Shown here one piece after another: positions 21,296 through 37,162 of a DNA stretch of 37,407 bases (its first letter is position 1; each line of letters starts with the position of its first letter). Source of the DNA: Dehalococcoidia bacterium. Lineage in GTDB: Bacteria; Chloroflexota; Dehalococcoidia; GIF9; AB-539-J10. The stretch is from positions 1 to 37,407 of the forward strand of contig JAUWHP010000038.1 in assembly GCA_030605765.1 (NCBI GenBank). Reading direction: 5' to 3'. The position numbers were made by a program, and so were the translations under genes. The notes below the pieces were generated by a model that did not search any database, had not been told where the DNA came from, and was given only the letters and a program-made list of their open reading frames with translations.

Positions 21296-21943
21296 ATGAC
21301 CACAAATAGAGAGGTCTTCGACCAGATAGCTGAAAGCTGGTACCAGGTAAGACATTGGCCTTTGTTACAGCAAGAGCTAGAGGAGCTAGCTCAAAGATGG
21401 CAGGGTGGAAGGTTGCTCAATGTTGGCTGTGGCCATGGTGCTGATTTTTTACCCTTCCAACAAGGATTTGAACTCTGGGGAATAGATTTTTCCCCGCAGA
21501 TGCTCAGGCAGGCTCAGAGATATTCCAGCAAATTCAAGTTTTATGTCAACTTGGCAGTCGCTGATGCGCTTTCCCTGCCCTTTCCCAACGCCACCTTTGA
21601 CTGGACAATTGCAGTGGCCGTTTACCACCATATTAAGGGTCAAAACGAGAGAGAAAGGGCATTCAGGGAACTAAAGCGGGTGCTGAAACCAGGAGGCGAG
21701 GCTTTCTTAACCGTATGGAATCGAGGACAACCAGGGTTCCGCTTAAAATCCCCGGAGCAGCAAATTCCCTGGAGGCTGAGAGGTAAAACAGTCTATCGTT
21801 ATTACCACCTCTTCTCCTGTGGCGAGCTCAAAAGGCTACTTGCCAAAGTTGGCTTCAAGATCCTTAGTGCAACACCAGAGAAATCCTATCACTTCCCCAT
21901 AAAGAGTTTCTCTCGTAATATTTGCGTCCTGGTAAAGAAATAG
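21296..21943 (+). CDS. Class I SAM-dependent methyltransferase, Trm9/ALKBH8-MT-like
   Basis: 215 aa; REVFDQIAESWYQVRHWP, LLNVGCGHGADFLPF (SAM motif I), VADALSLPFPNATFDWTIAVAVYHHIKGQNERERAFRELKRVLKPGGEAFLTVWNR. Confidence 0.82.
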   Translation: MTTNREVFDQIAESWYQVRHWPLLQQELEELAQRWQGGRLLNVGCGHGADFLPFQQGFELWGIDFSPQMLRQAQRYSSKFKFYVNLAVADALSLPFPNATFDWTIAVAVYHHIKGQNERERAFRELKRVLKPGGEAFLTVWNRGQPGFRLKSPEQQIPWRLRGKTVYRYYHLFSCGELKRLLAKVGFKILSATPEKSYHFPIKSFSRNICVLVKK

Positions 21944-22102: not shown

Positions 22103-25100
22103 TTACGTCTCTTGCTTGCCAGACGGCTCCTGGCCGACTTCTATCTTCTGGGGAAGACCAGCTTTGATGATGCCGAGGAAAGTTTCCACCAACTCGGGGT
22201 CAAACTGCTTACCAGCATCCTGTCTGAGTCGTTTTATCATTGCATTATCGCCTAAGGCACCACGGTAAGGACGGGCAGAACCCATAGCAGCAAAGGCATC
22301 AGCTATAGCCAGAATACGAGCATCCAGGGGGATTTTATCGCCTTCCAATCCCTCAGGATACCCAGTACCGTCCCACCACTCATGATGATATAAGACGCTA
22401 TTCACACAGGGAATTAAACCGGGCACATTCCTGACAATATTCGCGCCCAGTATAGGATGGGACTTAATTGCTATCCAGTCTGTTTCGTCAAGTTTCCCTT
22501 TCTTGGTGAGTACCTTATCCGGAATACCAATCTTGCCAATATCGTGGAGTAAAGCACCAGCGCTTATCCTGGACACCTCTTCAGGTGATAGGCCAATGGC
22601 CTCAGCCAGAGCTACAGCGTAAGTGTTAACTTTCCTGGAATGGCCATAGGTATAGTGGTCCTTAGCATCGACCGCCGCGGCTAAGGCGTAAACGGTGCTT
22701 AAACCAGTTCTTCTGGCATCAATCCCCACCTTGGTTGCTGACTCAGACAAGATTTTAGAGGAAGGGTAAATTCGGTTACCCCCGGTGCTCTTGGCATAAT
22801 AAAGCGCGGTATCAGCCATGGTAACAAGCTCACCGTACATCATTCCGTCGGCTGGATAACTGGACAGGCCCCCACTACAAGTCACCGCAATTCCCTGGGC
22901 CTCCATTGTAGCAGCAATGCACTTCCGAGTTCGTTCAGCTACCATATAAGCATCATCTACAGTCGTCTCGGGCAAAATTACAGCAAATTCGTCACCACCG
23001 TAGCGAAAAGCCTGGTCAGTGCCCCTGATAGAGCTCTTTATGATTTTGCCTATTTTGTTCAGAACCTGGTCACCGGAGGGATGTCCATACATGTCGTTGT
23101 AGGTTTTAAAAGAGTCAAGGTCAAGCATTAAGAAGGAGAGCAGGTTATTATGACGAGCATGTCGCTCAATCTCCTCTCTAAACCGCTCCTCAAGATGGCG
23201 ACGGTTGAATAGCCCGGTGATCTCATCAACGCGAGCCCTCTGCTCAACACCAACATAAAGCCGGGAGTTCTCAATAGGCATGGCAATCTGTAAAGCTAGA
23301 CGCTCCAGAAGCAGTGCCTGCTCGGGAGTATAGGCATCGGGACGGCGGCTAGCTACAATCAAAGTGCCCATAACCTCATCCCTCACAACTAATGGCAGAT
23401 GAAGTATAGAGCGAATTCCCTCCTTAACATAATGCTTGGCAGTTCCAAATTCGCTATGCTTTTCCAGGTCGGCTTGATACAAGCTTTTCTTATGCTCAAC
23501 CACCCATTCAGTAACTGTCTCTTTAAGCTCTAACCTTTCTCCCGATTGACGTGCCGACCTCGCCTGGCTGGATACAGCCAGAACACGAAGCTGTTCTCCT
23601 TCAATTAAAGCAATCGCGGCATAATCAGCGTCAACTACCTCCTTTAACTCTCTGGCAAAATGCTCAAATATCTCAGTAACGTTCACACTGGAGGTTATAA
23701 TCGCACTTAAGCGGTTGATAATAGCTAATTCTTTGCTCTTCTCCTCCACCTGCTCACGGAGATATTCCTTTTCCATACTCACCGCCACCCGTTTGGCAAC
23801 GAACTCTGTTAAATCGAGGTCCTCAACGGTATAAAGTTTGTTGCCTCGTTTACTACCTATTGCCAAAATAGCAATAAGCCTATCACTATGCATCAACGGA
23901 ATGAGCATTTCCACTTCTGACAATTGGATGTCCTTTTTTTCCTCCTGCCACAAACCTTGAAATTCAGGCATGACATCGATTCCCCTCCTGAATAGCCTTT
24001 GACGCTCTCGCTCCATCCAGGTCACAATGGGGCTATCATGCCTCAATCTCATCTCCGCCATAGGATCATGTCTTACAGGTGGATAATTAAATCTGGCAGC
24101 AAGATCTCCGCCTTCCGCCTGGGGTAAAAACAAACAGGCTCTGCTACAATCAATAGACTGAGAAAGCAAGGACACAAGTTGGCTGCCAAAATGTTCCAGA
24201 GTAGGGACATCATATATTCTGTCGATAAAGTCAGCTAACTTACGCCGGGGTTTAATCCTTTCACCTTGAAAGGCTTCCTCCATTTTTTCAGCAAGTATGC
24301 TACGTGTTCGAACTCCAAAAACGATAAATATAGCCATTGTAGACAGCAAAGCTACAAGGACAGGAACAAAGCCTGGTCCCAAATGGAAAAGCCTTTGGAA
24401 CAGAAGCCACCATGATAGACAAATAGATACGAAGAGAACGCCATATATAGTGGAAGTCAAGCCACGCCGAAAAAACACCCTGAAATCCAGCAGGTGACCG
24501 GCCACAACAGCATAGGTTAAGAGACCGGCATTGGCTAGATTGCCAACATGGCTAAAGGGAAATCCTCCCCCAAAGGGAGCAAACGAGATGACAGTGCTGA
24601 CGATCATTATATCGATACCCAGAAATAGATAAACTACCTGGTTACGTAGTATTGGGTCAGCCAAAATCCTGCGCCGGCGTACTAAATAGTATACATCCCT
24701 GCAAATCAAAGCCATGATAAGGAAACCTATAAGACTGAGCCAGATGCCATAGTTGACGTAGATGCCACCGGGGGTAATATCAATGGTCTTTGGAATATAG
24801 CCTAGCGCTGCTAATACAACAGTGGCTCCTGGCAAGGTATAAGCGAATGGTATCTTAAGTGCTTGCGGTTTATAATAGGCCTGCAAGAAATAGTGGAACT
24901 GCACTCCCGACCATATACCCACGCAATTAACGGTTTTGACTAGAAGAAGCTTATCCTCCATTAAGAAATCGCTGCGGAAGAAAATATCACTTAAGCTCCA
25001 GAGGAATGCGGAAATCAGGTACAGAAAGAAAAGCTTCTGCTTTCTATCCCAGGGCCGGCTTCCAAGCAGAATGACAGAGAGCGTGATGTAGGCAATACAG

Positions 25101-25132
25101 GCAACTAAGGGCACAAACGCGTGAACATTCAT
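22103..25132 (-). CDS. Membrane-associated GAF-GGDEF-HD-GYP cyclic-di-GMP signalling protein
   Basis: ORF track gives 22103..25144 with a TTG start; ATG at 25132 preferred. N-terminal TM region, GAF-like domains, RGTDQAFRYGGDEF (I-site RxxD plus intact GGDEF), HDIGKIGIPD and HHEWWDGTGYPEGL (HD-GYP). Confidence 0.93.
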   Translation of the reverse strand: MNVHAFVPLVACIAYITLSVILLGSRPWDRKQKLFFLYLISAFLWSLSDIFFRSDFLMEDKLLLVKTVNCVGIWSGVQFHYFLQAYYKPQALKIPFAYTLPGATVVLAALGYIPKTIDITPGGIYVNYGIWLSLIGFLIMALICRDVYYLVRRRRILADPILRNQVVYLFLGIDIMIVSTVISFAPFGGGFPFSHVGNLANAGLLTYAVVAGHLLDFRVFFRRGLTSTIYGVLFVSICLSWWLLFQRLFHLGPGFVPVLVALLSTMAIFIVFGVRTRSILAEKMEEAFQGERIKPRRKLADFIDRIYDVPTLEHFGSQLVSLLSQSIDCSRACLFLPQAEGGDLAARFNYPPVRHDPMAEMRLRHDSPIVTWMERERQRLFRRGIDVMPEFQGLWQEEKKDIQLSEVEMLIPLMHSDRLIAILAIGSKRGNKLYTVEDLDLTEFVAKRVAVSMEKEYLREQVEEKSKELAIINRLSAIITSSVNVTEIFEHFARELKEVVDADYAAIALIEGEQLRVLAVSSQARSARQSGERLELKETVTEWVVEHKKSLYQADLEKHSEFGTAKHYVKEGIRSILHLPLVVRDEVMGTLIVASRRPDAYTPEQALLLERLALQIAMPIENSRLYVGVEQRARVDEITGLFNRRHLEERFREEIERHARHNNLLSFLMLDLDSFKTYNDMYGHPSGDQVLNKIGKIIKSSIRGTDQAFRYGGDEFAVILPETTVDDAYMVAERTRKCIAATMEAQGIAVTCSGGLSSYPADGMMYGELVTMADTALYYAKSTGGNRIYPSSKILSESATKVGIDARRTGLSTVYALAAAVDAKDHYTYGHSRKVNTYAVALAEAIGLSPEEVSRISAGALLHDIGKIGIPDKVLTKKGKLDETDWIAIKSHPILGANIVRNVPGLIPCVNSVLYHHEWWDGTGYPEGLEGDKIPLDARILAIADAFAAMGSARPYRGALGDNAMIKRLRQDAGKQFDPELVETFLGIIKAGLPQKIEVGQEPSGKQET

Positions 25133-25143
25133 AATATGAGTCA

Positions 25144-25172
25144 ATTATCGGCATAAATGCGAAACCTGTCAA
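25144..25172 (-). promoter_or_regulatory. Predicted promoter of the GGDEF/HD-GYP gene
   Basis: Minus strand TTGACA (25172-25167), 17 bp spacer, GATAAT (25149-25144). Confidence 0.55.
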
Positions 25173-25267: not shown

Positions 25268-26941
25268 TCAAGGAACTGCAGTTCGCTCAGCTTCAGTTGC
25301 CGGCACAATTTCCACTTCGACTCTCCTGGCAGCTCCCAGTAAGGCAAGCACTTCATCAGATGGGTTAATGTGCGGCGGCTTCAAATGGCCCAGGTCAGCC
25401 CCCTCAGCTTGCCTCTGAGAAACATAGCTGGCAAAAGCGCCTTGAGGAAGTAAGCTAACCTCCACTGGCTTCAAGCCAAGCACTGCCTCTGGATCTCCAT
25501 AAGCACTGTAAATATTATAGTGATATATACTGTCTAATTTTAGAAGCTCCTCATACACCGCTGCTGCTGTACTTTTTTCGCTGGCAATATAGTCATCCTT
25601 AAGCTCCAAGTAGAGACGCAGCACTGGCTTATCGCCACTTACTTCCTTGCGCGCTGCCCACTCTACATAAGGAATGCCTGTATTCTCAATTGCCTGCCAG
25701 ATTAGCTTCTCGGTCAGGTGCCCAAAACCAGTAATATCAATAAGGTCATCAGCTCTGCTATAAAATAGCATCTGTGGTATATCAATACGCAAGCGCTCAT
25801 TCCACAGCGAGGTTATCTTGACCATATCACCAAGCCTGAATCTGGTCATAATGCCGCCGTGAAGATTGGTGATAACTATCTCATAATTCTCTCCTGCTTT
25901 TATTTCGTCCAGCAAGATAGTCTTGGGTTGGTAGGAATGGTCTAATTGCCATTTGAACCACTCCCTCTCCGAAATGAACTCAAAGAAATTGAGGTTGGGA
26001 ATAAAAGTCATACCCTCATAATCCCACGTCTGGGTGGCGTAAATGCCACCCTCTGTGCCAACATATAACTCCAGGGGGTACCTCCCCCACATTTCCTTCA
26101 CCCTTGTCTTAAAAACGGCGCTATCTGTACCACCACCACCAATCCCCTTAATCGACCACAAATCTTTAGGCAACATGGGACGATGAGCTAATTTGCTTTT
26201 GGCCAGTCCCTTGCTCACTCGAAATAGCGCTCTGGGGTGAGATAAGAGAGGGCGAATATTCGCCTTCCCCGACCGCTGACTGAACTGCTCCCCCACAGAC
26301 ACCAGAACAGAGGGCAACCCACCAAAGGCATCAAGCCCTTGGTATAGAGCTTCCTCAAAACCAGCCTTTATTTTCTGTTGAAAAGGCATCCCCTCGCCGT
26401 CAGAGGGCAACATGTCATAACCAAGCGACTGCTGTATCAAGCTGCAGAGAAGCCCCGAAGCATACTCCGGAGGCCCTACTGTGTATATCGTCTTTTGATG
26501 CTCCTTAACTTGGGAAACATCACCTCGATCGCCGCACATGGTAAAAATAGCTATGCCACCAGCCACCTTCTCGTATTCTGAAACAAAATCCTTTGACATG
26601 GGCACCCATTTCACATCATACTCACCAGTCTTGCCTGAAGTACGTACCCATCTGGCAACCTTGGCCGGCAAGACATCCTCCCTCTTCTGCCTCAACTCCG
26701 GAAGATAATCACCATAGGTAGTTAATGGCGCCCGCTCCCGAAATTCCTCCACTGTCTCCGGCATGGCACCACGCATCACCTTCCGACCCAGCTCACAGCC
26801 TTTCAGCAACCCAATCTGCTCCAAAAGCAACCGCTTCTGGATAACCATGAACTGCTCCAACCTTAAGTCAATGAAACCACAGCACATCTGCCACAGCTCC
26901 TCCTTCCTACCCTGCCGCAGTAAATCAATCGGCCTTGTCAT
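25268..26941 (-). CDS. GH3-family (auxin-responsive promoter GH3-like) acyl-adenylating enzyme, copy 1
   Basis: VRTSGKTGEYDVKWVP (P-loop-like), YVGTEGGIYATQ, ADDLIDITGFGHLTEKLIWQAIENTG fit the ANL motifs of GH3. ATG 26941 preceded by AGGAGG; ORF track starts at 26986. Confidence 0.85.
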   Translation of the reverse strand: MTRPIDLLRQGRKEELWQMCCGFIDLRLEQFMVIQKRLLLEQIGLLKGCELGRKVMRGAMPETVEEFRERAPLTTYGDYLPELRQKREDVLPAKVARWVRTSGKTGEYDVKWVPMSKDFVSEYEKVAGGIAIFTMCGDRGDVSQVKEHQKTIYTVGPPEYASGLLCSLIQQSLGYDMLPSDGEGMPFQQKIKAGFEEALYQGLDAFGGLPSVLVSVGEQFSQRSGKANIRPLLSHPRALFRVSKGLAKSKLAHRPMLPKDLWSIKGIGGGGTDSAVFKTRVKEMWGRYPLELYVGTEGGIYATQTWDYEGMTFIPNLNFFEFISEREWFKWQLDHSYQPKTILLDEIKAGENYEIVITNLHGGIMTRFRLGDMVKITSLWNERLRIDIPQMLFYSRADDLIDITGFGHLTEKLIWQAIENTGIPYVEWAARKEVSGDKPVLRLYLELKDDYIASEKSTAAAVYEELLKLDSIYHYNIYSAYGDPEAVLGLKPVEVSLLPQGAFASYVSQRQAEGADLGHLKPPHINPSDEVLALLGAARRVEVEIVPATEAERTAVP

Positions 26942-26997
26942 AACTACGCCTCCTGCTCTTTTCCTCTTATTCTGAACCGCACTCAACTACTCTCACT

Positions 26998-27324
26998 TCA
27001 CCTCACCTCCTCAGAATATCTTTGGGGGGCGCCCAGCGCCTGCAGCTTTTCGCTTAACCGCTCAAACTCGTCATCCCCGGGCTGTTTGCCCAGCTCAAGC
27101 CCATAACTGATAAAAAACTCCAGGAACTTACGCAGCAATTCCTTCGTCCCTTCCTGAAACTGTTCGAATTCCTCCCTGCTTACCCCATCACGCCTCTTGC
27201 TTTCTTCCCTCAATTGGTTATCGATAAGGAAGTTAATGAAATCGGACCGACCCATGTCACCACGGTTATCATCTACCCTGTTCACCACTTCTGCCTCCAC
27301 TATTAACATTCTCTTTTCAGACAT
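26998..27324 (-). CDS. Small ribbon-helix-helix-like protein, copy 1
   Basis: 108 aa; KRMLIVEAEVVNRVDDNRGDMGRSDFINFLIDNQLREE resembles an RHH strand plus G.SRSEFI..LI pattern; C-terminal charged helix. Confidence 0.6.
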   Translation of the reverse strand: MSEKRMLIVEAEVVNRVDDNRGDMGRSDFINFLIDNQLREESKRRDGVSREEFEQFQEGTKELLRKFLEFFISYGLELGKQPGDDEFERLSEKLQALGAPQRYSEEVR

Positions 27325-27395
27325 TTAACACCCTCTTCCTATTCTGAGTCCTCTGTTTCCTGTCACTATAAGCTTAGCTTAGTGAGCTTATTCCT

Positions 27396-27423
27396 CAAGG
27401 GCGAGGCTAGAGCCTCGCCCTTG
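27396..27423. terminator. Perfect GC-rich hairpin between GH3 copy 2 and RHH-like copy 1
   Basis: CAAGGGCGAGGC-TAGA-GCCTCGCCCTTG: 12 bp stem, 4 nt loop, 26 bp past the GH3-2 stop; no T-tract, may be a REP-like palindrome. Confidence 0.6.
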
Positions 27424-27448
27424 GAATTATCTAACTCTTGTGCTCAGT

Positions 27449-29122
27449 TCAGCCAACTACAATACGCTCGGCTCCAGCTTCGGATACAGCTTCTACCTTA
27501 ACCTTCTTAACAGTTCCCAGTAAGGCGAGCACCTCATCAGATGGATTAATATGCGGCGGCTTCAAATGACCCAGGTCAGCCCCCTCAGCTTGTCGCTGGG
27601 CCATATAACTGGAAAAGGCACCTTGGGGAATGAAGGTGACCTGCACAGGTTTTAGACCAAGTACATTCTCCGGGTCACCCCAAGCGGTGTACATATTGTA
27701 GTGATATATCCTGTCTAATTTTATAAACTCGTCATACACGGCCGCTGCCGCGGTTTTCTCACTAACAATGTAGTCATCCTTAAGCTCAACATAGAGACGC
27801 AATGCTGGTTTGTCCCTCATCATCTCTTTACGAGCTACCCAATTCACATAACGAATGCCTGTATTCTCAATTGCCTGCCAGATTACCTTCTCTGTCAAAC
27901 GGCCAAAGCCAGGAATATCAATAAGGTCATCAGCTCGCCTCTCAAATACCATTTGTGGAGTATCAATGTTCAAATTCTCATTTCGCAGTGAAATTATGCG
28001 GACCATATCACCAGGTCTATACCTGGTCATTATGCCACCATGAAGATTGGTGATGATTACCTCATAATTCTCGCCTGCTTTTACTTCGTCCAGCAAGACA
28101 GTTCTGGGCTGGTAGGAACGGTCTAATCGCCATTTGAACCACTCACTTTCAGGAATGAACTCGAAGAAGTTAAGGTAGGGCACAAAGGTCATCCCTTCAT
28201 AATCCCAGGTTTGAATGGCATAAAAGCCACCCTCTGTGCCAGAATACATTTCAAGGAAAGGCCTCCCCCATAATTCCTCTACCTTTTTCCTGAAAATGCT
28301 GCAATCTGTGCCGCTGCCTGCAAGGCCTTTGAGCGGCCACAGGTCTTTGGGCAACATAGGCCGATGAGCCAGTTTGCTCTTCACCAATCCTTTTGTCAGC
28401 CGGATAAACGCCTGGGGATGAGCTAATAAAGGACGAATATCTCTTTTCCCCGACCGCTGTTTGAACTGCTCTCCTACAGCCAGCAAGACAGAAGGAAGAC
28501 TACCCACCATATCAATCCCTCGATACAAACCCTCCGCAAAACCGGCTTTCATTCTTTCCTGAAACGCCATTCCCTCCCCATGAGAAGGCAAGAAATCACA
28601 GCCAATCGCTTGTTGTGTCAAGTCGACGAGAGCACCCGATATGTACTCCGGTGGCCCCATGCTCAATAGCAATTTGAAGTGCTCCTTAACCTTAGAGGTA
28701 TCACCGCGACCGTCACAAGTAGAAAGGAGAACAATAGCCCCTCCAAACCTTTCAGATTCACGAGCGAAATCCTCCGACATGGGCACCCATTTCACATCGT
28801 ACTCACCACCCTTGCCTGAAGTACGTACCCATCTGGCAACCTTGGCCGGCAAGACATCCTCCCTCTTCTGCCTCAACTCCGGAAGATAATCACCATAGGT
28901 AGTTAATGGCACCTGCTCCCGAAATTCCTCCATTGTCTCCGGCATGGCACCGCGCATCACCTTCCGACCTAGTTCACAGCCTTTTAGCAACCCAATCTGC
29001 TCCAAAAGCAACCGCTTCTGGATAACCATGAACTGCTCCAAACTTAAGTCAATGAAACCACAGCACATCTGCCACAGCTCCTCCCTCCTACCCTGCCGCA
29101 ATAAATCAATCGCCCTTGTCAT
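27449..29122 (-). CDS. GH3-family acyl-adenylating enzyme, copy 2
   Basis: Paralog of 25268..26941; VRTSGKGGEYDVKWVP, YSGTEGGFYAIQ, ADDLIDIPGFGRLTEKVIWQAIENTG; ATG 29122 preceded by AGGAGG (ORF track start 29170). Confidence 0.85.
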   Translation of the reverse strand: MTRAIDLLRQGRREELWQMCCGFIDLSLEQFMVIQKRLLLEQIGLLKGCELGRKVMRGAMPETMEEFREQVPLTTYGDYLPELRQKREDVLPAKVARWVRTSGKGGEYDVKWVPMSEDFARESERFGGAIVLLSTCDGRGDTSKVKEHFKLLLSMGPPEYISGALVDLTQQAIGCDFLPSHGEGMAFQERMKAGFAEGLYRGIDMVGSLPSVLLAVGEQFKQRSGKRDIRPLLAHPQAFIRLTKGLVKSKLAHRPMLPKDLWPLKGLAGSGTDCSIFRKKVEELWGRPFLEMYSGTEGGFYAIQTWDYEGMTFVPYLNFFEFIPESEWFKWRLDRSYQPRTVLLDEVKAGENYEVIITNLHGGIMTRYRPGDMVRIISLRNENLNIDTPQMVFERRADDLIDIPGFGRLTEKVIWQAIENTGIRYVNWVARKEMMRDKPALRLYVELKDDYIVSEKTAAAAVYDEFIKLDRIYHYNMYTAWGDPENVLGLKPVQVTFIPQGAFSSYMAQRQAEGADLGHLKPPHINPSDEVLALLGTVKKVKVEAVSEAGAERIVVG

Positions 29123-29201
29123 AGCTACACCTCCTGTTCTTTTCCTCTTATTCGGAACCGCACTCAACAACTCTCACTTCACCTCGCCTCCTCAGAATAT
29201 C

Positions 29202-29358
29202 AAGGAAAATTTATTAACTACAAAACTATGACAGACCTTAGTCGGATTTGGGAAGTGATTATGTTCTAGAAGATAGTTCTATTTGAAGCTGTGATGTGAA
29301 AAGTCTAACTGAAAAGAAAATATGAGTAACTAGTGACCTTGCTAAGAAGTTTTGCCTT
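29202..29358. mobile_element. 157 bp AT-rich segment with imperfect terminal inverted repeats (MITE-like candidate)
   Basis: Present between RHH-like copy 2 and GH3 copy 2, absent from the colinear copy 1 junction (27020/27021). Ends AAGGAAAATTTATTA and (revcomp) AAGGCAAAACTTCTTA pair with one gap and two mismatches. Confidence 0.45.
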
Positions 29359-29662
29359 TTTGGGAGGCGCCCAGCGCCTGCAGCTTTTCGCTTAACTGTT
29401 CAAACTCGTCATCCCTGGGCTGCTTGCCCAGCTCAAGCCCATAACTGATAAAAAATTCCAGGAACTTACGCAGTAACTCCTTCGTCCCTTCCTCAAACTG
29501 TTCGAAGTCTTCCCTGCTTACCCCATCACGCCTCTTGCTTTCTTCCCTCAATTGGTTATCCATAAGGAAGTTAATGAAATCGGAACGACCCATGTCACCA
29601 CGGTTGTCATCTACCCTGTTCACCACTTCTGCCTCCACTATTAACATTCTTTTTTCAGACAT
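29342..29662 (-). CDS. Small ribbon-helix-helix-like protein, copy 2
   Basis: 106 aa, near-identical to 26998..27324 except the C-terminus (GASQKGKTS vs GAPQRYSEEVR); AAGGAG upstream of ATG. Confidence 0.6.
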   Translation of the reverse strand: MSEKRMLIVEAEVVNRVDDNRGDMGRSDFINFLMDNQLREESKRRDGVSREDFEQFEEGTKELLRKFLEFFISYGLELGKQPRDDEFEQLSEKLQALGASQKGKTS

Positions 29663-29774
29663 ATGCCGCTCCTTTCATATTGCAATGCTTCTCACATTTG
29701 TTATGTTAACTAGGAGATAATCCCTACGCCCGTTTCCCCCTCACCCCTGGTAAAACCCCACACATTGCTCAGTT

Positions 29775-30083
29775 CTAGGCTCCGTTACCATCCCTGAACT
29801 CAAGCACTTCCATTACACTATCTATGTTCTTAAGTAGCCCCAGCCCCTTCTCTGTCACATGATAGGTAACTACGGGGTTACCCACCTCTATTTTACTAAT
29901 AAACCCATGGCTCAACAGAAAACCCAGATATTTCTGTATCTGGGTATAGCTCATGTTAGCACTGTACATAATCTCCGTCTTGCCAGCGCCATTTTCCCCT
30001 ACCTTGAGCATGTCAGCTATTATCTCAACATTAGACCGTCTACGATTCATTGTACCCAATCCACTATCCGTTACTATAGTCAC
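29775..30083 (-). CDS. Winged-helix transcriptional regulator (archaeal-type, COG3432-like)
   Basis: MNRRRSNVEIIADMLKVGENGAGKTEIMYSANMSYTQIQKYLGFLLSHGFISKIEVGNPVVTYHVTEKGLGLLKN; start may be the internal Met of MNRRRSN. Confidence 0.85.
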   Translation of the reverse strand: MTIVTDSGLGTMNRRRSNVEIIADMLKVGENGAGKTEIMYSANMSYTQIQKYLGFLLSHGFISKIEVGNPVVTYHVTEKGLGLLKNIDSVMEVLEFRDGNGA

Positions 30084-30176: not shown

Positions 30177-33100
30177 CTACCGGCTGACGAGGCAAAACAC
30201 GATGATGACAATATCCAATAATGCCAGTATGCCAATGATAAGCCATATCCAGAATGGTGTTGGCGGCGTGACGACTGTCGTAGCCAGTGTGGTTGGCTCT
30301 GACACCACGGTAAAGGTGCTTACAGGACTGGGCTCACTAGGAACAGGCTCAACAGCTTTCACCTGCCAGAAATAGGTTGTCTCCCAGTCAAGCTTGCCAC
30401 TGTATATATAAGCCGATACAGGCACTTCCTCTTTGACTACCACCTGAGCCAAATCAACATCTTTGGCTAAAATAAATTCATACTTTGTAGTATGGGGGAA
30501 GCCTATCCAGGAAAAGCCCGGCGACCTGGATACATCCCTGCTGCCACTTTGTGGTGCTTTCAATACAGGTGCAATGTGCATCCCCTCTATCGATGAGCAG
30601 GTTTTCACAGTAAAATGCATTGGTGGCGACCAGCGACTATGAATGCTCTCGCCCTCAGTAGTGCCACAGCCTCTCACTTTCCAGTAGTAAGCCTCACCAC
30701 AAACAAAACGGAATAGAATTTCGTGTGAACACCAGGCGGGGTTGCTAAGGTTAGAGGGACCTACATTCTCCACTTTGGCCACCACATATTTAAACTCTTC
30801 ATCCAGGGCTATCCATAAGTCATATTTCTCAGTCAAAGACAACTGCCGCCAGTGAAAGGAAAATATTCTAGCCTGACAATCACAGGGGTCACAGTGTAGC
30901 AATTCCCCTATGGCCGGTGAAGTTGGCCAGGGCGATTGCAGAGCGAAGCTATCAGAATAGACCCACAGGCATCCCTCGTCCTGCGAAAAATCATAGCTTC
31001 GGCCATCGATGGCCCATAAATCTATAGCTTCATTACTCACTGCCCTTAACGTGCCATCTCTGAAGATAACTCCATTGGCTAGTCCAAAAGTAAGTCTATC
31101 CCAATCACTCTCACTAACAGTTTCCAGGTGCGGGATGAGCGTGCGAGCAACACCTGGCCCATAAATTCCGTAGAGAGCGCCTCCTCTTTGAGCCAGGCCA
31201 TGAAATCCCGAATCGGGGGGATTCAACTTCTGCCACGATGTGCTGCCTTCGATGGTCCATCTGTAAATTTTGCCTTCGCTGCTGGCGGCATAGATAAATC
31301 GGTTGCTATCGAAATCTTCATCGGGTATCACCCATATTTCTCCCGGCTTCGATTCAGGCACCGCTAGTGTCTGCTCAAAAGTAACTCCACCATCAACGGA
31401 ATAAGCAACCTTGCCCTCATCGCCCCCATCTCCAACAAAGACAAATTCTTCACCATTTATAGCCATGGTATGGCCGGAGAGAAGCCCGGTATCCATATCC
31501 ATATCCGTGTCCCATTCCCACGTGTCTGCGTACTCTTCTTCCTCCCAGACACCTTTATTGAGTAGATTATCATCCAGAACATAGAGCACTTGACCACTTA
31601 CCACAGCTAAATCAGTGATGTGAGGACATCCCCAGACCTGCTTCCACGTCTCTCCACCATTCAGCGAACAGCAGGCATAATCGCTGTCCAGGGCAGCAAA
31701 GAAAATAGCCTCCTCTGAACTACCCTCGGGGGTAGGTCTTAAAACTATGTCATTGGTTTTGCCATCAAAGCATAATACTCTTTGCCAGGTTTCCCCCAGT
31801 GCTTCTAACGTTTCACTCTCGCTTCGCCATATACTGTCAAACCCACTGCTTGCTGAAGCTAGATAAAGGGTTGTGTAATCAGCAGACAGGGCATAATCGC
31901 AAAGATGCTCCATATTAGTATCTATGAGAGATAGCTGGTTCCAGGTATCACCATCATCTTCGCTTCGGGAAAAAGCGCTTTCATCAAAGCTAGCGCCGAA
32001 CCAGGGGTGGCTGCTGGATACGTCCATATCTTTCCACTCACTAGCATCTGTTACATGATTAGTGCTTGTCCCACAATAAGCCATCTCACCATCATTGCTC
32101 CAGACCACTTGAGCATTGGCACGACCGGAAACAGCGCCACCGGTAGGTGGCTCGCTCGGCTCTTCCCAATCGGGGCGAGCATCTTCAGGATTGAAACAGA
32201 TGTGAATTAAGGCGTTAGCTGAGTTTGTTTCAGCCAGCACCTCCCCAACCAGGAGCGTGCCTCCGCTACAAGTGCCGTAATAGGCAATGGAAGCTATAGA
32301 AACCTTGCTGCCACGGTTGACATCCAGCCTGAAGACATCAGTATCCTCGATGCGGTAAACATCATCAGCGGTTGTGCTTGAGCCATACGCAGCATAAACA
32401 ACGCGACTGTCAGGTTCATCCCCTGAATAATCAGAAGGCAAGGCTAAATCAGAAAAGATGATTTCGCTTTCTCCCGGTGAATCTCCACTGGATTCGCTGA
32501 TCTCCACTTTAGGTGGATCGGTTTCTTCCCAATCTGTGCTATTCTCGTCGCTATTTCTGATACCAGTGCAGAGATAGGTTTTCTCAGCATCGCTGGCGAT
32601 AACCAGTATCGTTTTGTCGCTGTCATAATCAGGCGAGAAACGAACTGAGGTCACATCCATACCCAGCCCTTGCGCTTCCCAGGTAGCGAGAAACCCCGAT
32701 TCTATCACCCAGACATCACCACCGCTAAAGCTATCTGGATTCCGCGTGCCGATGGCAAAGTCTCTATCGCCACCATATTCTGGAGAAATAGCAATGTCAG
32801 AAATAAGCAGGCTTGCACTCCAGTCCGCGGCGCTCGAAAGATGAGTATCTATCCAGCTATCCCCGCCATCCTCAGAAACGTAAACCTCTTGCCTGCCGTC
32901 GGTAACCACAGCTATTAGTTCTGGGTCACCTGGCGCTATAGTTATATCCCAGGCAGGCAAATTAGCACCTTCACCTTCAAGCGCTTCGGTTAAATCATCC
33001 TCCCAGGTAATCCCCTCATCAATTGATTTATAGATGATTCCATCGGGAATATCCAACGCATAGAAGGCCTCGCCTTCAGAGCCAATGACAAAAGCATTTA

Positions 33101-33275
33101 TTTCGCTGGGATTAACTACAACGTTGCCCTCTTTGCTCGGGCTCTCTACGACAGACCACTCCATCTCATCAGGGCTGGCCAAGGCCAACTCAGTTCCGGC
33201 AAAAGCAAGCAAGCCAGAAAATAACAACAGGACAACCAGCCCTGAACACTGCACCAGGAACTTTCTCCTAACCAT
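30177..33275 (-). CDS. Large secreted, C-terminally membrane-anchored BNR/sialidase-like repeat protein
   Basis: 1032 aa; N-terminal signal peptide, repeated GDSW/GDTW/GETW/GVTF Asp-box-like motifs, FnIII-like C-terminal segments, terminal TM FWIWLIIGILALLDIVIIVFCLVSR. Confidence 0.8.
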   Translation of the reverse strand: MVRRKFLVQCSGLVVLLLFSGLLAFAGTELALASPDEMEWSVVESPSKEGNVVVNPSEINAFVIGSEGEAFYALDIPDGIIYKSIDEGITWEDDLTEALEGEGANLPAWDITIAPGDPELIAVVTDGRQEVYVSEDGGDSWIDTHLSSAADWSASLLISDIAISPEYGGDRDFAIGTRNPDSFSGGDVWVIESGFLATWEAQGLGMDVTSVRFSPDYDSDKTILVIASDAEKTYLCTGIRNSDENSTDWEETDPPKVEISESSGDSPGESEIIFSDLALPSDYSGDEPDSRVVYAAYGSSTTADDVYRIEDTDVFRLDVNRGSKVSIASIAYYGTCSGGTLLVGEVLAETNSANALIHICFNPEDARPDWEEPSEPPTGGAVSGRANAQVVWSNDGEMAYCGTSTNHVTDASEWKDMDVSSSHPWFGASFDESAFSRSEDDGDTWNQLSLIDTNMEHLCDYALSADYTTLYLASASSGFDSIWRSESETLEALGETWQRVLCFDGKTNDIVLRPTPEGSSEEAIFFAALDSDYACCSLNGGETWKQVWGCPHITDLAVVSGQVLYVLDDNLLNKGVWEEEEYADTWEWDTDMDMDTGLLSGHTMAINGEEFVFVGDGGDEGKVAYSVDGGVTFEQTLAVPESKPGEIWVIPDEDFDSNRFIYAASSEGKIYRWTIEGSTSWQKLNPPDSGFHGLAQRGGALYGIYGPGVARTLIPHLETVSESDWDRLTFGLANGVIFRDGTLRAVSNEAIDLWAIDGRSYDFSQDEGCLWVYSDSFALQSPWPTSPAIGELLHCDPCDCQARIFSFHWRQLSLTEKYDLWIALDEEFKYVVAKVENVGPSNLSNPAWCSHEILFRFVCGEAYYWKVRGCGTTEGESIHSRWSPPMHFTVKTCSSIEGMHIAPVLKAPQSGSRDVSRSPGFSWIGFPHTTKYEFILAKDVDLAQVVVKEEVPVSAYIYSGKLDWETTYFWQVKAVEPVPSEPSPVSTFTVVSEPTTLATTVVTPPTPFWIWLIIGILALLDIVIIVFCLVSR

Positions 33276-33557: not shown

Positions 33558-35882
33558 ATGCAACAGGTAGAACAGAGGCAGGTTGAGCAGCTCAAAAGCC
33601 AATTTATCCAGCGGCTTGAAAGCCAGGGCTATGAAGTCGAACAGGATGTTTCTCTGACAGGCAAATCTGGCGCCCAGCATGCCTTCCATATTCTGGCCCG
33701 TGAAAACAGTGGCTTCATCGCTCATACTATCGCTATAGACATTGCTCCAGGTGAAAATGAGCAAGAAATAGGTCTGGGCAAAATCTTCACCTTCAACGAC
33801 AAATGCTATGACTGTGGCATCCAGGATACAATCCTCATTGGCCTTCCCGGAGTTGATTCTGTGGCCAGCCGCTTCGCCCGGGGACAACGAATAAGAGTTT
33901 TCAATAGCGAAACGTTGAAGGCATTCCTGGCCATGCCCCTCCCGGCCAGACAGATTAAGAAAAACATTCCCTTCAACCCCAAGACAAGAAGCGAAACAAT
34001 AGAAATTCTGCGCCAATCCGGCTATACGATTGAGGAGAACACCAGGATCAGGGGAAAATCGGGGGCAGAATATAGCTTTGACATCCTGGCCTCCCTGGAT
34101 AATGGTTTTGTAACTCATAAGCTAGGTATAGATGACATGACCAGCAGCGAAGTAAGCCTAAACGAGATATCACTGTTTGACACGAAATCTTATGATTGCG
34201 AAATTCAGAAAAAGGCTCTTTTGATTTCTGCCAAACTTGCCCCTGAGATTAAGCAGTTTGCCAAACAACAAAGAATAAACGTCATTGAGCTCAATAACCA
34301 AGCCCAGAAACTGGCTGCAAAAGAGGAGAACCCACCCAGCCTGCAAGATACCATCGAGGAATTGCTCACTTCAGCACCACAGGTGAAACCCAGAGAGAGG
34401 TTGCTCAAACACATAACCCAACCGGAGGTCTTACAGCTAATTCCCGAAACCATGGCCAGGAGATTCAATGTTATGCCCCTGGCTATTGTGGACAATGCCT
34501 TGCAAATAGCTATGGCAAATCCATCTGACATCTTCGCTCTGGAAGCCCTGGCATTGCAGAGCAAGATGAGAATGTATCCTATAACTGCCGGTGAAAAGGA
34601 AATCAGGGAAGCTATCGACTTCAGCTACAAAGGCTTTGGACAAATCGAGGAACAAATATCCCGCATCTCTGTAGATGGTGCGGCACTTGATGAACAAAGC
34701 TTAATCGAGGCTGCCGAGGATACCCCCGTGGCTAGCGCCTTACGCCTCATAGTTGATGAGGCAGTTAAGGCCAGAACCTCTGACATCCATATTGAGCCTG
34801 AAGAAGATAGATTAAAAATCCGTTATCGCATTGATAGTGCTCTCCAGGATATTATGTCCCTCCCCCTGAAAATACACCTCCCTCTCACCTCAAGAATAAA
34901 AATAATGGCTGATATGAATATCGCTGACCACCTCCGCCCCCAGGATGGGCAGTTTTCCACTGTGGCTAAAGGCAGATCCATAGATGTCCGCGTGGCTACA
35001 TCACCCACAGTTCACGGTGAGATGACAGTCTTGCGCCTGCTGGATAAGTCTCTGGGCATTATAGATTTACCTCAGTTAGGCTTCTCTCCCGAAGCCCTGG
35101 CTAAATATGAGAATATGCTCAAGGTTCCCTTCGGCATGATTTTAATTAGCGGTCCTACCGGTGCAGGCAAGACCACCACTCTCTATGCTTCAGTGAATAA
35201 GTTGGATAAGGTATCACGAAACATAGTTACCATTGAAGACCCTGTGGAATATCGCTTCCCAGGTATTAACCAAATTCAGATCAACCCCAGGGCAGGAGTT
35301 ACCTTCGCCAGCGGATTACGCTCCATACTGCGCCTGGATCCCGATATCATACTGGTGGGGGAAATTCGCGATGCTGAGACAGCCAGGATAGCTGTCCAGT
35401 CCGCCCTGACAGGACACCTGGTCTTCTCCTCCATCCACGCCAACGATGCTATCGGCGTCATCCTCCGCCTGCTTGATTTGGGTATAGAACCTTTCCTGGT
35501 ATCATCTGCAGTTATCGGCGTAGTGGCTCAGCGCATGGTACGCCATATTTGCCCCGACTGCTGCACTTATCAAGAAGCCCCGTTAATGGAGCAATTAGCC
35601 TATACCAAGGAAACAGGGGAAAAACGAACCGAGTTTCTCCATGGCACCGGCTGCGAGTTATGCTCCCATACCGGATACAGGGGAAGAACAGGGCTATTCG
35701 AAATTCTGCCCATAAGCGATAAGATAAAGATGCAAATACTAAAAGGCGCCAGCACCGCTGAGATTCGACAACAAGCAATCAAGGAGGGAATGGTGCTCCT
35801 GATTAAGGACGGCATGCTCAAAGTAAAAGCAGGCATCACCACCCCTTCTGAAGTGCTGCGCAGAGCTTACATAATAGAGTAG
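33558..35882 (+). CDS. Type IV pilus / type II secretion ATPase PilB/GspE with two N-terminal Mrr-like domains
   Basis: 774 aa; MshEN-like domain, GPTGAGKTTTLYAS Walker A, ILVGEIRDAETA Walker B, CPDC...CELC zinc motif; tandem GKSGA..(F)DILA domains at N-terminus. Confidence 0.95.
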   Translation: MQQVEQRQVEQLKSQFIQRLESQGYEVEQDVSLTGKSGAQHAFHILARENSGFIAHTIAIDIAPGENEQEIGLGKIFTFNDKCYDCGIQDTILIGLPGVDSVASRFARGQRIRVFNSETLKAFLAMPLPARQIKKNIPFNPKTRSETIEILRQSGYTIEENTRIRGKSGAEYSFDILASLDNGFVTHKLGIDDMTSSEVSLNEISLFDTKSYDCEIQKKALLISAKLAPEIKQFAKQQRINVIELNNQAQKLAAKEENPPSLQDTIEELLTSAPQVKPRERLLKHITQPEVLQLIPETMARRFNVMPLAIVDNALQIAMANPSDIFALEALALQSKMRMYPITAGEKEIREAIDFSYKGFGQIEEQISRISVDGAALDEQSLIEAAEDTPVASALRLIVDEAVKARTSDIHIEPEEDRLKIRYRIDSALQDIMSLPLKIHLPLTSRIKIMADMNIADHLRPQDGQFSTVAKGRSIDVRVATSPTVHGEMTVLRLLDKSLGIIDLPQLGFSPEALAKYENMLKVPFGMILISGPTGAGKTTTLYASVNKLDKVSRNIVTIEDPVEYRFPGINQIQINPRAGVTFASGLRSILRLDPDIILVGEIRDAETARIAVQSALTGHLVFSSIHANDAIGVILRLLDLGIEPFLVSSAVIGVVAQRMVRHICPDCCTYQEAPLMEQLAYTKETGEKRTEFLHGTGCELCSHTGYRGRTGLFEILPISDKIKMQILKGASTAEIRQQAIKEGMVLLIKDGMLKVKAGITTPSEVLRRAYIIE

Positions 35883-35950
35883 AATGACAACTGGGAGGCT
35901 TTGGCCTGGCACTACGAGGTTGACATAATTAAGAGGAGTAAGAGATTGCT

Positions 35951-37162
35951 ATGAATTATCATTATGTGGCCTGCAGCGAAAGCAATAGAATAGTCAAAGG
36001 CAAGCTCTCCGCCCCCAACGAGGAAGCCGCTGCTGGTATGCTGGCTTACAGTGGCTATCGGGTGCTTAGCCTCAAAGAAGCTATACCTTTCTTCGCCGCC
36101 GGGAAATTAGGCGCCCAATTTTCTGCCATAAAGCCAACCGAACTGGTAATGTTTTCTCGCCAGCTAGCTTTGCTGATTGAATCAGGCACCGATGCGGTTA
36201 CTTCCATAGAACTGCTACAGGCTCAAGCGACCAATCGCTCCTTCAAAAAGATACTCGCCGAGGTGCTTTCCGATGTCCGAGGTGGCTCTGCCCTATCAGA
36301 GGCTCTGAGCAGACACCCTCGTGTCTTTCCCCAGGTTTATCATCGGCTGGTATCCGTGGGAGAGCAGACGGGAAATCTTGAAACAGTGTTAAGGCGAGCG
36401 GCTGGTTATATAGAAAGGGTAGCTATAACCCAGAAAAGCGTGAAGAATGCCTTGATCTATCCCATTATCGTTCTTATTGTAGCTATTCTAGTCATTGCCG
36501 TAATGGTCACATTCGTTTTACCCGCTTTCTCTGACCTGTATTCTACATTTGGCGTCGAGTTACCGGCAACAACCAGAGCGCTGCTCGCTATCACTGATTG
36601 GACGCAACATTACGGTCTATGGCTTCTGGCAGCCATGATAATTGCTGTTGTTGCGGGATTTGCCTACACCAGGACTCCAGCAGGTAAGTATCAATGGGGC
36701 AAATTATCCCTTACGCTACCCCAGGTCGGGCGTATTAACCTTCTTAACGAGCTCTCCAGGTGTTGCCGCAATATAGCATTATTGTATGGCAGCGGTTTGC
36801 CTCTGCCCGAAATAATGACTCTGCTTATACAGGGAACCAGAAATAAAGTTATGGCAAAGGCGTTGACTGAAGTTCAGAAGAGCATGATTGCCGGCGCAGG
36901 CTTGTCCGGCCCTATGGCGAAGAACAAGGTTTTTCTGCCTCTCATGGTACAGATGACAGCCGTAGGCGAGCAAACCGGCAACCTGGATAACACTCTAAAC
37001 ACTGTAGCTGAGAGCTACGAAACTGAAGCCGATGACAGGACAAAAACGATGGTGGCCCTTATCACCCCTGGTATGACCCTATTCATTGGCCTAGTAGTTG
37101 GCTTTATTGCTCTAGCTATGATTTCCGCCATGTATTCCATCTATGGACAGGTGGGTTTGTAA
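35951..37162 (+). CDS. Type II secretion system F family / PilC inner membrane protein
   Basis: 403 aa; two GspF-type repeats (FSRQLALLIESGTDAVTSIELLQ; LSRCCRNIALLYGSGLPLPEIM), VGEQTGNLETVL and VGEQTGNLDNTL. Confidence 0.94.
   Translation: MNYHYVACSESNRIVKGKLSAPNEEAAAGMLAYSGYRVLSLKEAIPFFAAGKLGAQFSAIKPTELVMFSRQLALLIESGTDAVTSIELLQAQATNRSFKKILAEVLSDVRGGSALSEALSRHPRVFPQVYHRLVSVGEQTGNLETVLRRAAGYIERVAITQKSVKNALIYPIIVLIVAILVIAVMVTFVLPAFSDLYSTFGVELPATTRALLAITDWTQHYGLWLLAAMIIAVVAGFAYTRTPAGKYQWGKLSLTLPQVGRINLLNELSRCCRNIALLYGSGLPLPEIMTLLIQGTRNKVMAKALTEVQKSMIAGAGLSGPMAKNKVFLPLMVQMTAVGEQTGNLDNTLNTVAESYETEADDRTKTMVALITPGMTLFIGLVVGFIALAMISAMYSIYGQVGL

Follow-up and report, generated by a model that had tools for sequence, protein, structure and literature searches.

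What does a Dehalococcoidia bacterium do with a duplicated gene pair that encodes a small ribbon-helix-helix-like (RHH) protein and a GH3-family adenylating enzyme? The locus lies in a window of 37,407 nucleotides, by which we mean the whole stretch of DNA that was analysed (contig JAUWHP010000038.1), from a host genome of 0.95 Mb in 47 contigs with a completeness of 87.6%. The initial annotation placed five genes within 25268-30083, on the minus strand in the order wHTH - small(2) - GH3(2) - small(1) - GH3(1), and read them as a self-regulated acyl-conjugation system with two specificities. All five genes were confirmed with these coordinates and in this order; the boundary itself proved too narrow, as a sensor gene at 22103-25144 (SENS) is part of the unit. 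The reading itself is supported in part: a conserved 7TM GGDEF/HD-GYP sensor and a methyltransferase had been missed, and with them the locus more likely represents a module for production and sensing than conjugation standing alone. The features of the locus are as follows.

21296 to 21943, plus strand: class I SAM methyltransferase, convergent, just past SENS (PF08241, 3.1e-22; homologues adjoin SENS)
22103 to 25132, minus strand: SENS, HisKA_7TM-like membrane sensor-GAF-GAF-GGDEF-HD-GYP (Pfam; family N-terminus compared with PF16927; motifs)
25268 to 26941, minus strand: GH3(1), the second GH3 enzyme (557 aa), with TSGKTG as its P-loop (Pfam GH3 domains; motif conservation)
26998 to 27324, minus strand: small(1), second copy of the probable RHH protein, 108 aa (its DNA about 95% identical to that of small(2))
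27397 to 27422, no strand: perfect inverted repeat with 12-base arms, AAGGGCGAGGCT-CT-AGCCTCGCCCTT, between GH3(2) and small(1) (sequence)
27449 to 29122, minus strand: GH3(2), acyl-adenylating/amide synthetase of the GH3 family (557 aa), with TSGKGG as its P-loop (Pfam GH3 domains; ANL fold; motif conservation)
29342 to 29662, minus strand: small(2), 106 aa, probably an RHH protein that has two further helices at its C-terminus (AF2 topology; HHalign to RHH_1 proteins; 58-member aligned family)
29775 to 30050, minus strand: wHTH regulator, HTH_45/Sso10a-like (PF14947, 7e-22; NF053610, 5.7e-21, above cut-off)

Both GH3 genes most likely start at an ATG behind AGGAGG, at 26941 and 29122, which gives 557 aa each. 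The wHTH gene most likely starts at a conserved ATG near 30050, and its open reading frame reaches further, to a GTG at 30083; that of SENS reaches to a TTG at 25144 (1,013 aa for 22103-25144). The convergent methyltransferase gene is probably associated with the cassette. We considered the inverted repeat as a repetitive palindrome and rejected this, as its core occurred once in a pattern search of the host genome. Immediately upstream of wHTH, the window encodes an apparently secreted protein of 1,032 aa with Vps10/BNR-type repeats (30177-33275), relatives of which occupy the same position at several loci.

In a survey of 77 loci, where fractions count testable cases, the cassette of the Dehalococcoidia had the order wHTH-RHH-GH3-sensor. 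The pairing of small protein and GH3 noticed in the window is kept in other genomes, with the RHH gene before GH3 at 57/62 loci, far above chance; wHTH preceded RHH at 55/56, and the sensor lay downstream of GH3 at 58 of the 61 loci where this could be judged. Since the genes flanking the cassette vary between loci, the unit itself is what is kept. Complete single-contig genomes of one family carry wHTH-RHH-[membrane methyltransferase]-GH3-sensor (L143, L144) or this set with the sensor displaced by a few kb, past pilT (L145, L146). A second Chloroflexota class encodes a GH3 enzyme in 28 of 298 genomes; RHH is absent there, and the core consists of methyltransferase-GH3-7TM sensor (methyltransferase adjacent at 24/26 loci, sensor at 26/27). 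Distant GH3-like proteins of the phylum at two loci (L150, L151) are encoded without such neighbours, which we count in favour of a module. A MAG labelled Bacillota (L098) has sensor, membrane methyltransferase and GH3 genes consecutively, with RHH absent, reflecting either a broader spread or a binning error. The GH3-7TM module is widespread and apparently undescribed: the open-licence papers searched held no description of it.

SENS contains GAF, GAF, GGDEF and HD-GYP domains (Pfam) with intact GGDEF, RxxD I-site, HDxGK and HHxxWxGxGYP motifs. The window protein itself had no PF16927 (HisKA_7TM) match, and its N-terminus aligns with the sensor family, in which PF16927 matched the N-terminus of 7/20 cassette sensors (best 2.7e-16) and 8/10 more distant sensors. 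To our knowledge, HisKA_7TM sensors have no established ligand. The 7TM part is constant in these proteins and the output alternates between GGDEF-HD-GYP and HisKA-HATPase, with or without REC; in the second class it is mostly HisKA-HATPase, with HD-GYP in one. Because the enzyme and the membrane sensing domain are constant while the output is exchangeable, we regard the arrangement as that of a synthase/receptor pair. A comparison of positions across 26 related genomes placed half of the HisKA_7TM matches (10 of 20) beside a GH3 gene. Three genomes (G025, G028 and G038, with completeness of 98, 92 and 96%) have RHH, sensor and methyltransferase together with no GH3 found, an arrangement that resembles a receptor without its synthase. 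Variation in the 7TM part correlated strongly with that in GH3 residues 119-280 overall (partial r 0.51) and not among members of the clade to which the window belongs (r 0.03); since the correlation vanishes there, we do not claim that the pair co-evolves.

The assignment of the two large proteins as GH3-type adenylating enzymes with ANL-type motifs held in both copies. Pfam GH3_M (9e-14 and 3e-14) and the GH3 N-domain (5e-7 and 5e-6) matched above cut-off, and GH3_C did so in copy 2 and fell slightly under in copy 1 (22.3 vs 23.6 bits). Significant PDB matches of the family profile were to plant GH3 enzymes only (best 4e-18), and an AF2 model (pLDDT 83) adopted the ANL fold, with PaaK-type ligases and plant GH3s as the best structural matches. 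The two copies, 74% identical to each other, are the only PF03321 matches in the host genome, and a plasmid search returned one weak GH3 match. The core residues G103, E297, R369, R396, E411, W428 and K432 are near-invariant in 148 unique homologues, and nucleotide-binding motifs I-III are kept across the family (S102/G103, T296-E297, R369/D372, R396, K432). Motif I of GH3(2) reads TSGKGG against the usual TSG[K/R][S/T]G, so that the loop Thr/Ser is Gly; some other family members have degenerate P-loops. In 19 proteins of one clade (L092, L095 and others) the motif III Asp, D372, is His, and these may have altered chemistry. The plant acyl acid amido synthetases JAR1, GH3.12 and GH3.15 share family, fold and motif positions with the window enzymes at about 15-18% identity in structural alignments; unlike them, the window enzymes are bacterial and linked to sensor genes. 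From family and active-site residues, we infer that GH3 would use ATP to activate an acyl acid, which it would then couple to an amino acid or another amine.

The genes that accompany the enzyme point to what might be conjugated and how it might be modified. Methyltransferases beside GH3 are of two unrelated kinds, class I (Methyltransf_11/25) and membrane PEMT/ICMT-like, and they recur in Dehalococcoidia loci as well as in the second class; in L092 a membrane methyltransferase and GH3 share a single open frame. The class I gene convergent to the sensor is found in the window and at about 20 related loci. A FabF-like ketosynthase gene lies between RHH and GH3 on the opposite strand at seven Dehalococcoidales-type loci (L058, L067, L068, L070, L074, L075 and L110, in the last beside GH3), followed, where checked, by a small HTH_17/excisionase-type gene. 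Its presence at these loci fits an acyl substrate for GH3.

Together, these data suggest that a small signal derived from an acyl compound is both made and sensed by these bacteria. We put at about one in two the probability that the locus represents, in the form found in one lineage, a conserved module for chemical production and sensing, in which an acyl conjugate made by GH3 is sensed by the neighbouring 7TM protein and RHH and wHTH regulate. As the linkage suggests, the adjacent methyltransferase would often tailor the GH3 product, and the HisKA_7TM-like membrane protein would sense this product, possibly methylated, or its acyl precursor. SENS would then alter cyclic di-GMP through its GGDEF and HD-GYP domains, the presumptive output in Dehalococcoidia. 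In relatives that carry a histidine kinase on the same sensing part, a domain swap that is observed directly, the output would be a phosphorelay. RHH and wHTH would control transcription of the locus. No exporter was found for the module, which counts against this reading, as do the degenerate P-loops and the motif III His of some family members.

The main rival is that the locus makes an aminolipid: an OlsH-like GH3 would form an N-acyl amino-acid lipid, the methyltransferase would N-methylate it, and the 7TM protein would report on membrane state to adjust the pathway. The precedent is OlsH, a GH3-like lyso-ornithine lipid synthetase of Planctomycetes that makes N-acyl ornithine and shares its operon with OlsG, which N-methylates ornithine lipid (PMC12493201). 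As in the window, a bacterial GH3 stands beside a methyltransferase and carries the same three nucleotide-binding motifs; by motif position, S102 of both copies is the counterpart of OlsH S115, a serine found essential (PMC12493201). The membrane methyltransferases at related loci match PEMT, and the NCBIfam OlsH model NF052613 matched the window GH3s weakly (E 4.5e-5). That match, however, reached 22.1 bits against a cut-off of 620, a very low similarity, and this score sets the window enzymes apart from the OlsH equivalogs. At the surveyed loci GH3 has no conserved neighbour that resembles OlsI, the second acyltransferase, OlsI was not seen at loci of the window type, and no 7TM sensor, RHH or wHTH is described for the OlsH system. 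A housekeeping lipid pathway would also not be expected to pair constantly with a sensor of variable output. We consider lipid synthesis unlikely, although it ranks first among the alternatives to a production-and-sensing module.

Less probable still is a role in environmental sensing or detoxification, in which the 7TM protein would detect an aromatic or fatty acid from outside and GH3 would conjugate it, with no signalling between cells. Plant GH3s act on exogenous acids, and they inactivate hormones by conjugation; regulators are present at the locus, and receptors without GH3 occur. Against this, the linkage to methyltransferase and ketosynthase genes indicates biosynthesis, and the sensor has c-di-GMP or a kinase as its output instead of controlling GH3 directly.

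The production-and-sensing reading gives the small protein the part of a regulator, and its proposed RHH-like nature was borne out in part. The two window copies are 93% identical and belong to a family of 58 aligned members, which combine an RHH-like N-terminal half with a C-terminal helix pair; the C-terminal helix is highly conserved, with F, FF and G invariant. An AF2 monomer (pLDDT 74) had helices at 11-20 and 26-43, preceded by a segment without secondary structure. Against genuine RHH_1 proteins, HHalign gave a modest match (probability 59, E 9e-5; two controls, 0.2 and 0.1), and the top matches in a fold search were mostly RHH proteins, at non-significant values (E > 3). Database searches with the small protein returned no significant match and no Pfam RHH match above cut-off. 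Matches to TipAS, EF-hand and AHSP were under cut-off and were set aside as a coincidence of helices, and PDB sequence matches to designed toroids and triosephosphate isomerase as chance helices. Based on the predicted topology, the modest HHalign match and the mostly RHH fold matches, the small protein is probably an RHH protein plus two added helices.

The initial annotation left the small protein as either a repressor or an enzyme partner, and of these the regulator side is favoured. As a dedicated GH3 subunit rather than a DNA-binding regulator, it would be expected nearly always immediately upstream of GH3, as it is; its C-terminal helix is very conserved, and it was duplicated and homogenised along with the GH3 N-terminus. 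GH3 homologues nevertheless lack an RHH partner throughout the second Chloroflexota class, and the three genomes described above keep RHH beside the sensor with no GH3 found. Because each occurs without the other, a locus regulator fits better than an obligate subunit, and we hold the partner role to be improbable. A toxin-antitoxin-like pair, with an RHH antitoxin first and GH3 as toxin, would suit the gene order and the size of the small protein, but we reject it as extremely improbable given the long gaps, the large enzyme, the vertical-looking conservation over a class, GH3 without RHH, and no PADLOC match to the RHH-GH3 pair.

Searches of the non-coding DNA yielded no convincing operator for RHH/wHTH autoregulation, no defined RNA element in Rfam, and no excess of promoters in a scan (7 vs 6.8 in shuffles). 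Many of the loci L064-L070, L072, L106 and L108, upstream of RHH, and L038-L050 and L100 share an element between wHTH and RHH, either an inverted repeat (GGGGTG..CACCCC) or a T-run hairpin (ACCTGAGGAC..GTCTTCAGGT-TTTT). This element is a possible terminator or attenuator.

The duplication in the window adds a further layer to the module. RHH and GH3 residues 1-118 share about 95% DNA identity between the copies, and past residue 118 there is an abrupt drop: the 160 residues that follow are about 59-70% identical (40-57% at third positions), after which the rest is mostly 70-88% identical. In trees, the N-terminal parts of GH3(1) and GH3(2) are sisters (93/93), whereas in the rest of the enzyme GH3(2) clusters with L035 (100/96) and not with GH3(1). 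These separate branches indicate that the enzymes diverged earlier and that a later homogenisation, or else an exchange, made their 5' parts alike. Together with the abrupt divergence after residue 118, they make the two specificities that had been proposed plausible on sequence grounds. With acyl-handling remainders that differ between the duplicated pairs, the cell would probably make two related products.

Type IV pilus genes recur in the flanks of the cassette, at 16 of the 35 loci whose upstream flank spans 2.5 kb or more and in several arrangements (pilB and pilC at 33558-37162 in the window; pilM, pilD and pilT elsewhere), which makes pili a candidate target of c-di-GMP. The window PilB had an MshEN Pfam match, but the strict c-di-GMP-binding motif, taken from PMC5013675, is absent from it; for this reason an action of c-di-GMP on the neighbouring PilB stays speculation.

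In the CqsA-CqsS and LuxM-LuxN systems, the gene for a signal synthase adjoins that for a multi-membrane-span sensor with kinase output. The GH3 module resembles them in placing a synthase gene next to a multi-span sensor, a likeness drawn here from linkage, and differs in that their synthase chemistry is unrelated to GH3 and its own sensing domain is HisKA_7TM (PF16927). Methyl-ester quorum sensing by PhcB-PhcS in Ralstonia likewise combines a methyltransferase and a membrane sensor kinase with an acyl-derived signal (PMC8578825, PMC11960443). PhcB-PhcS has no GH3, whereas in the GH3 module the methyltransferase is accessory and many of the sensors have GGDEF-HD-GYP at their end. More tentatively than for the module as such, we propose that GH3 and its partner methyltransferase might make a new class of diffusible acyl-conjugate autoinducer in Chloroflexota, with HisKA_7TM proteins as its receptors.

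The literature searched yielded one characterised role for a bacterial GH3, in ornithine lipid synthesis. The tight linkage of GH3 and HisKA_7TM in two classes provides a definite candidate partner for each, and it means that the GH3 gene by itself is the wrong unit of study. In plants, the same enzyme family makes jasmonoyl-isoleucine; if the autoinducer proposal is true, hormone-type chemistry would serve bacterial signalling. Dehalococcoidia are used in the clean-up of chlorinated solvents, and no described quorum sensing was found for them in the literature searched. If the module signals, it would be a first candidate for chemical communication in Dehalococcoidia.
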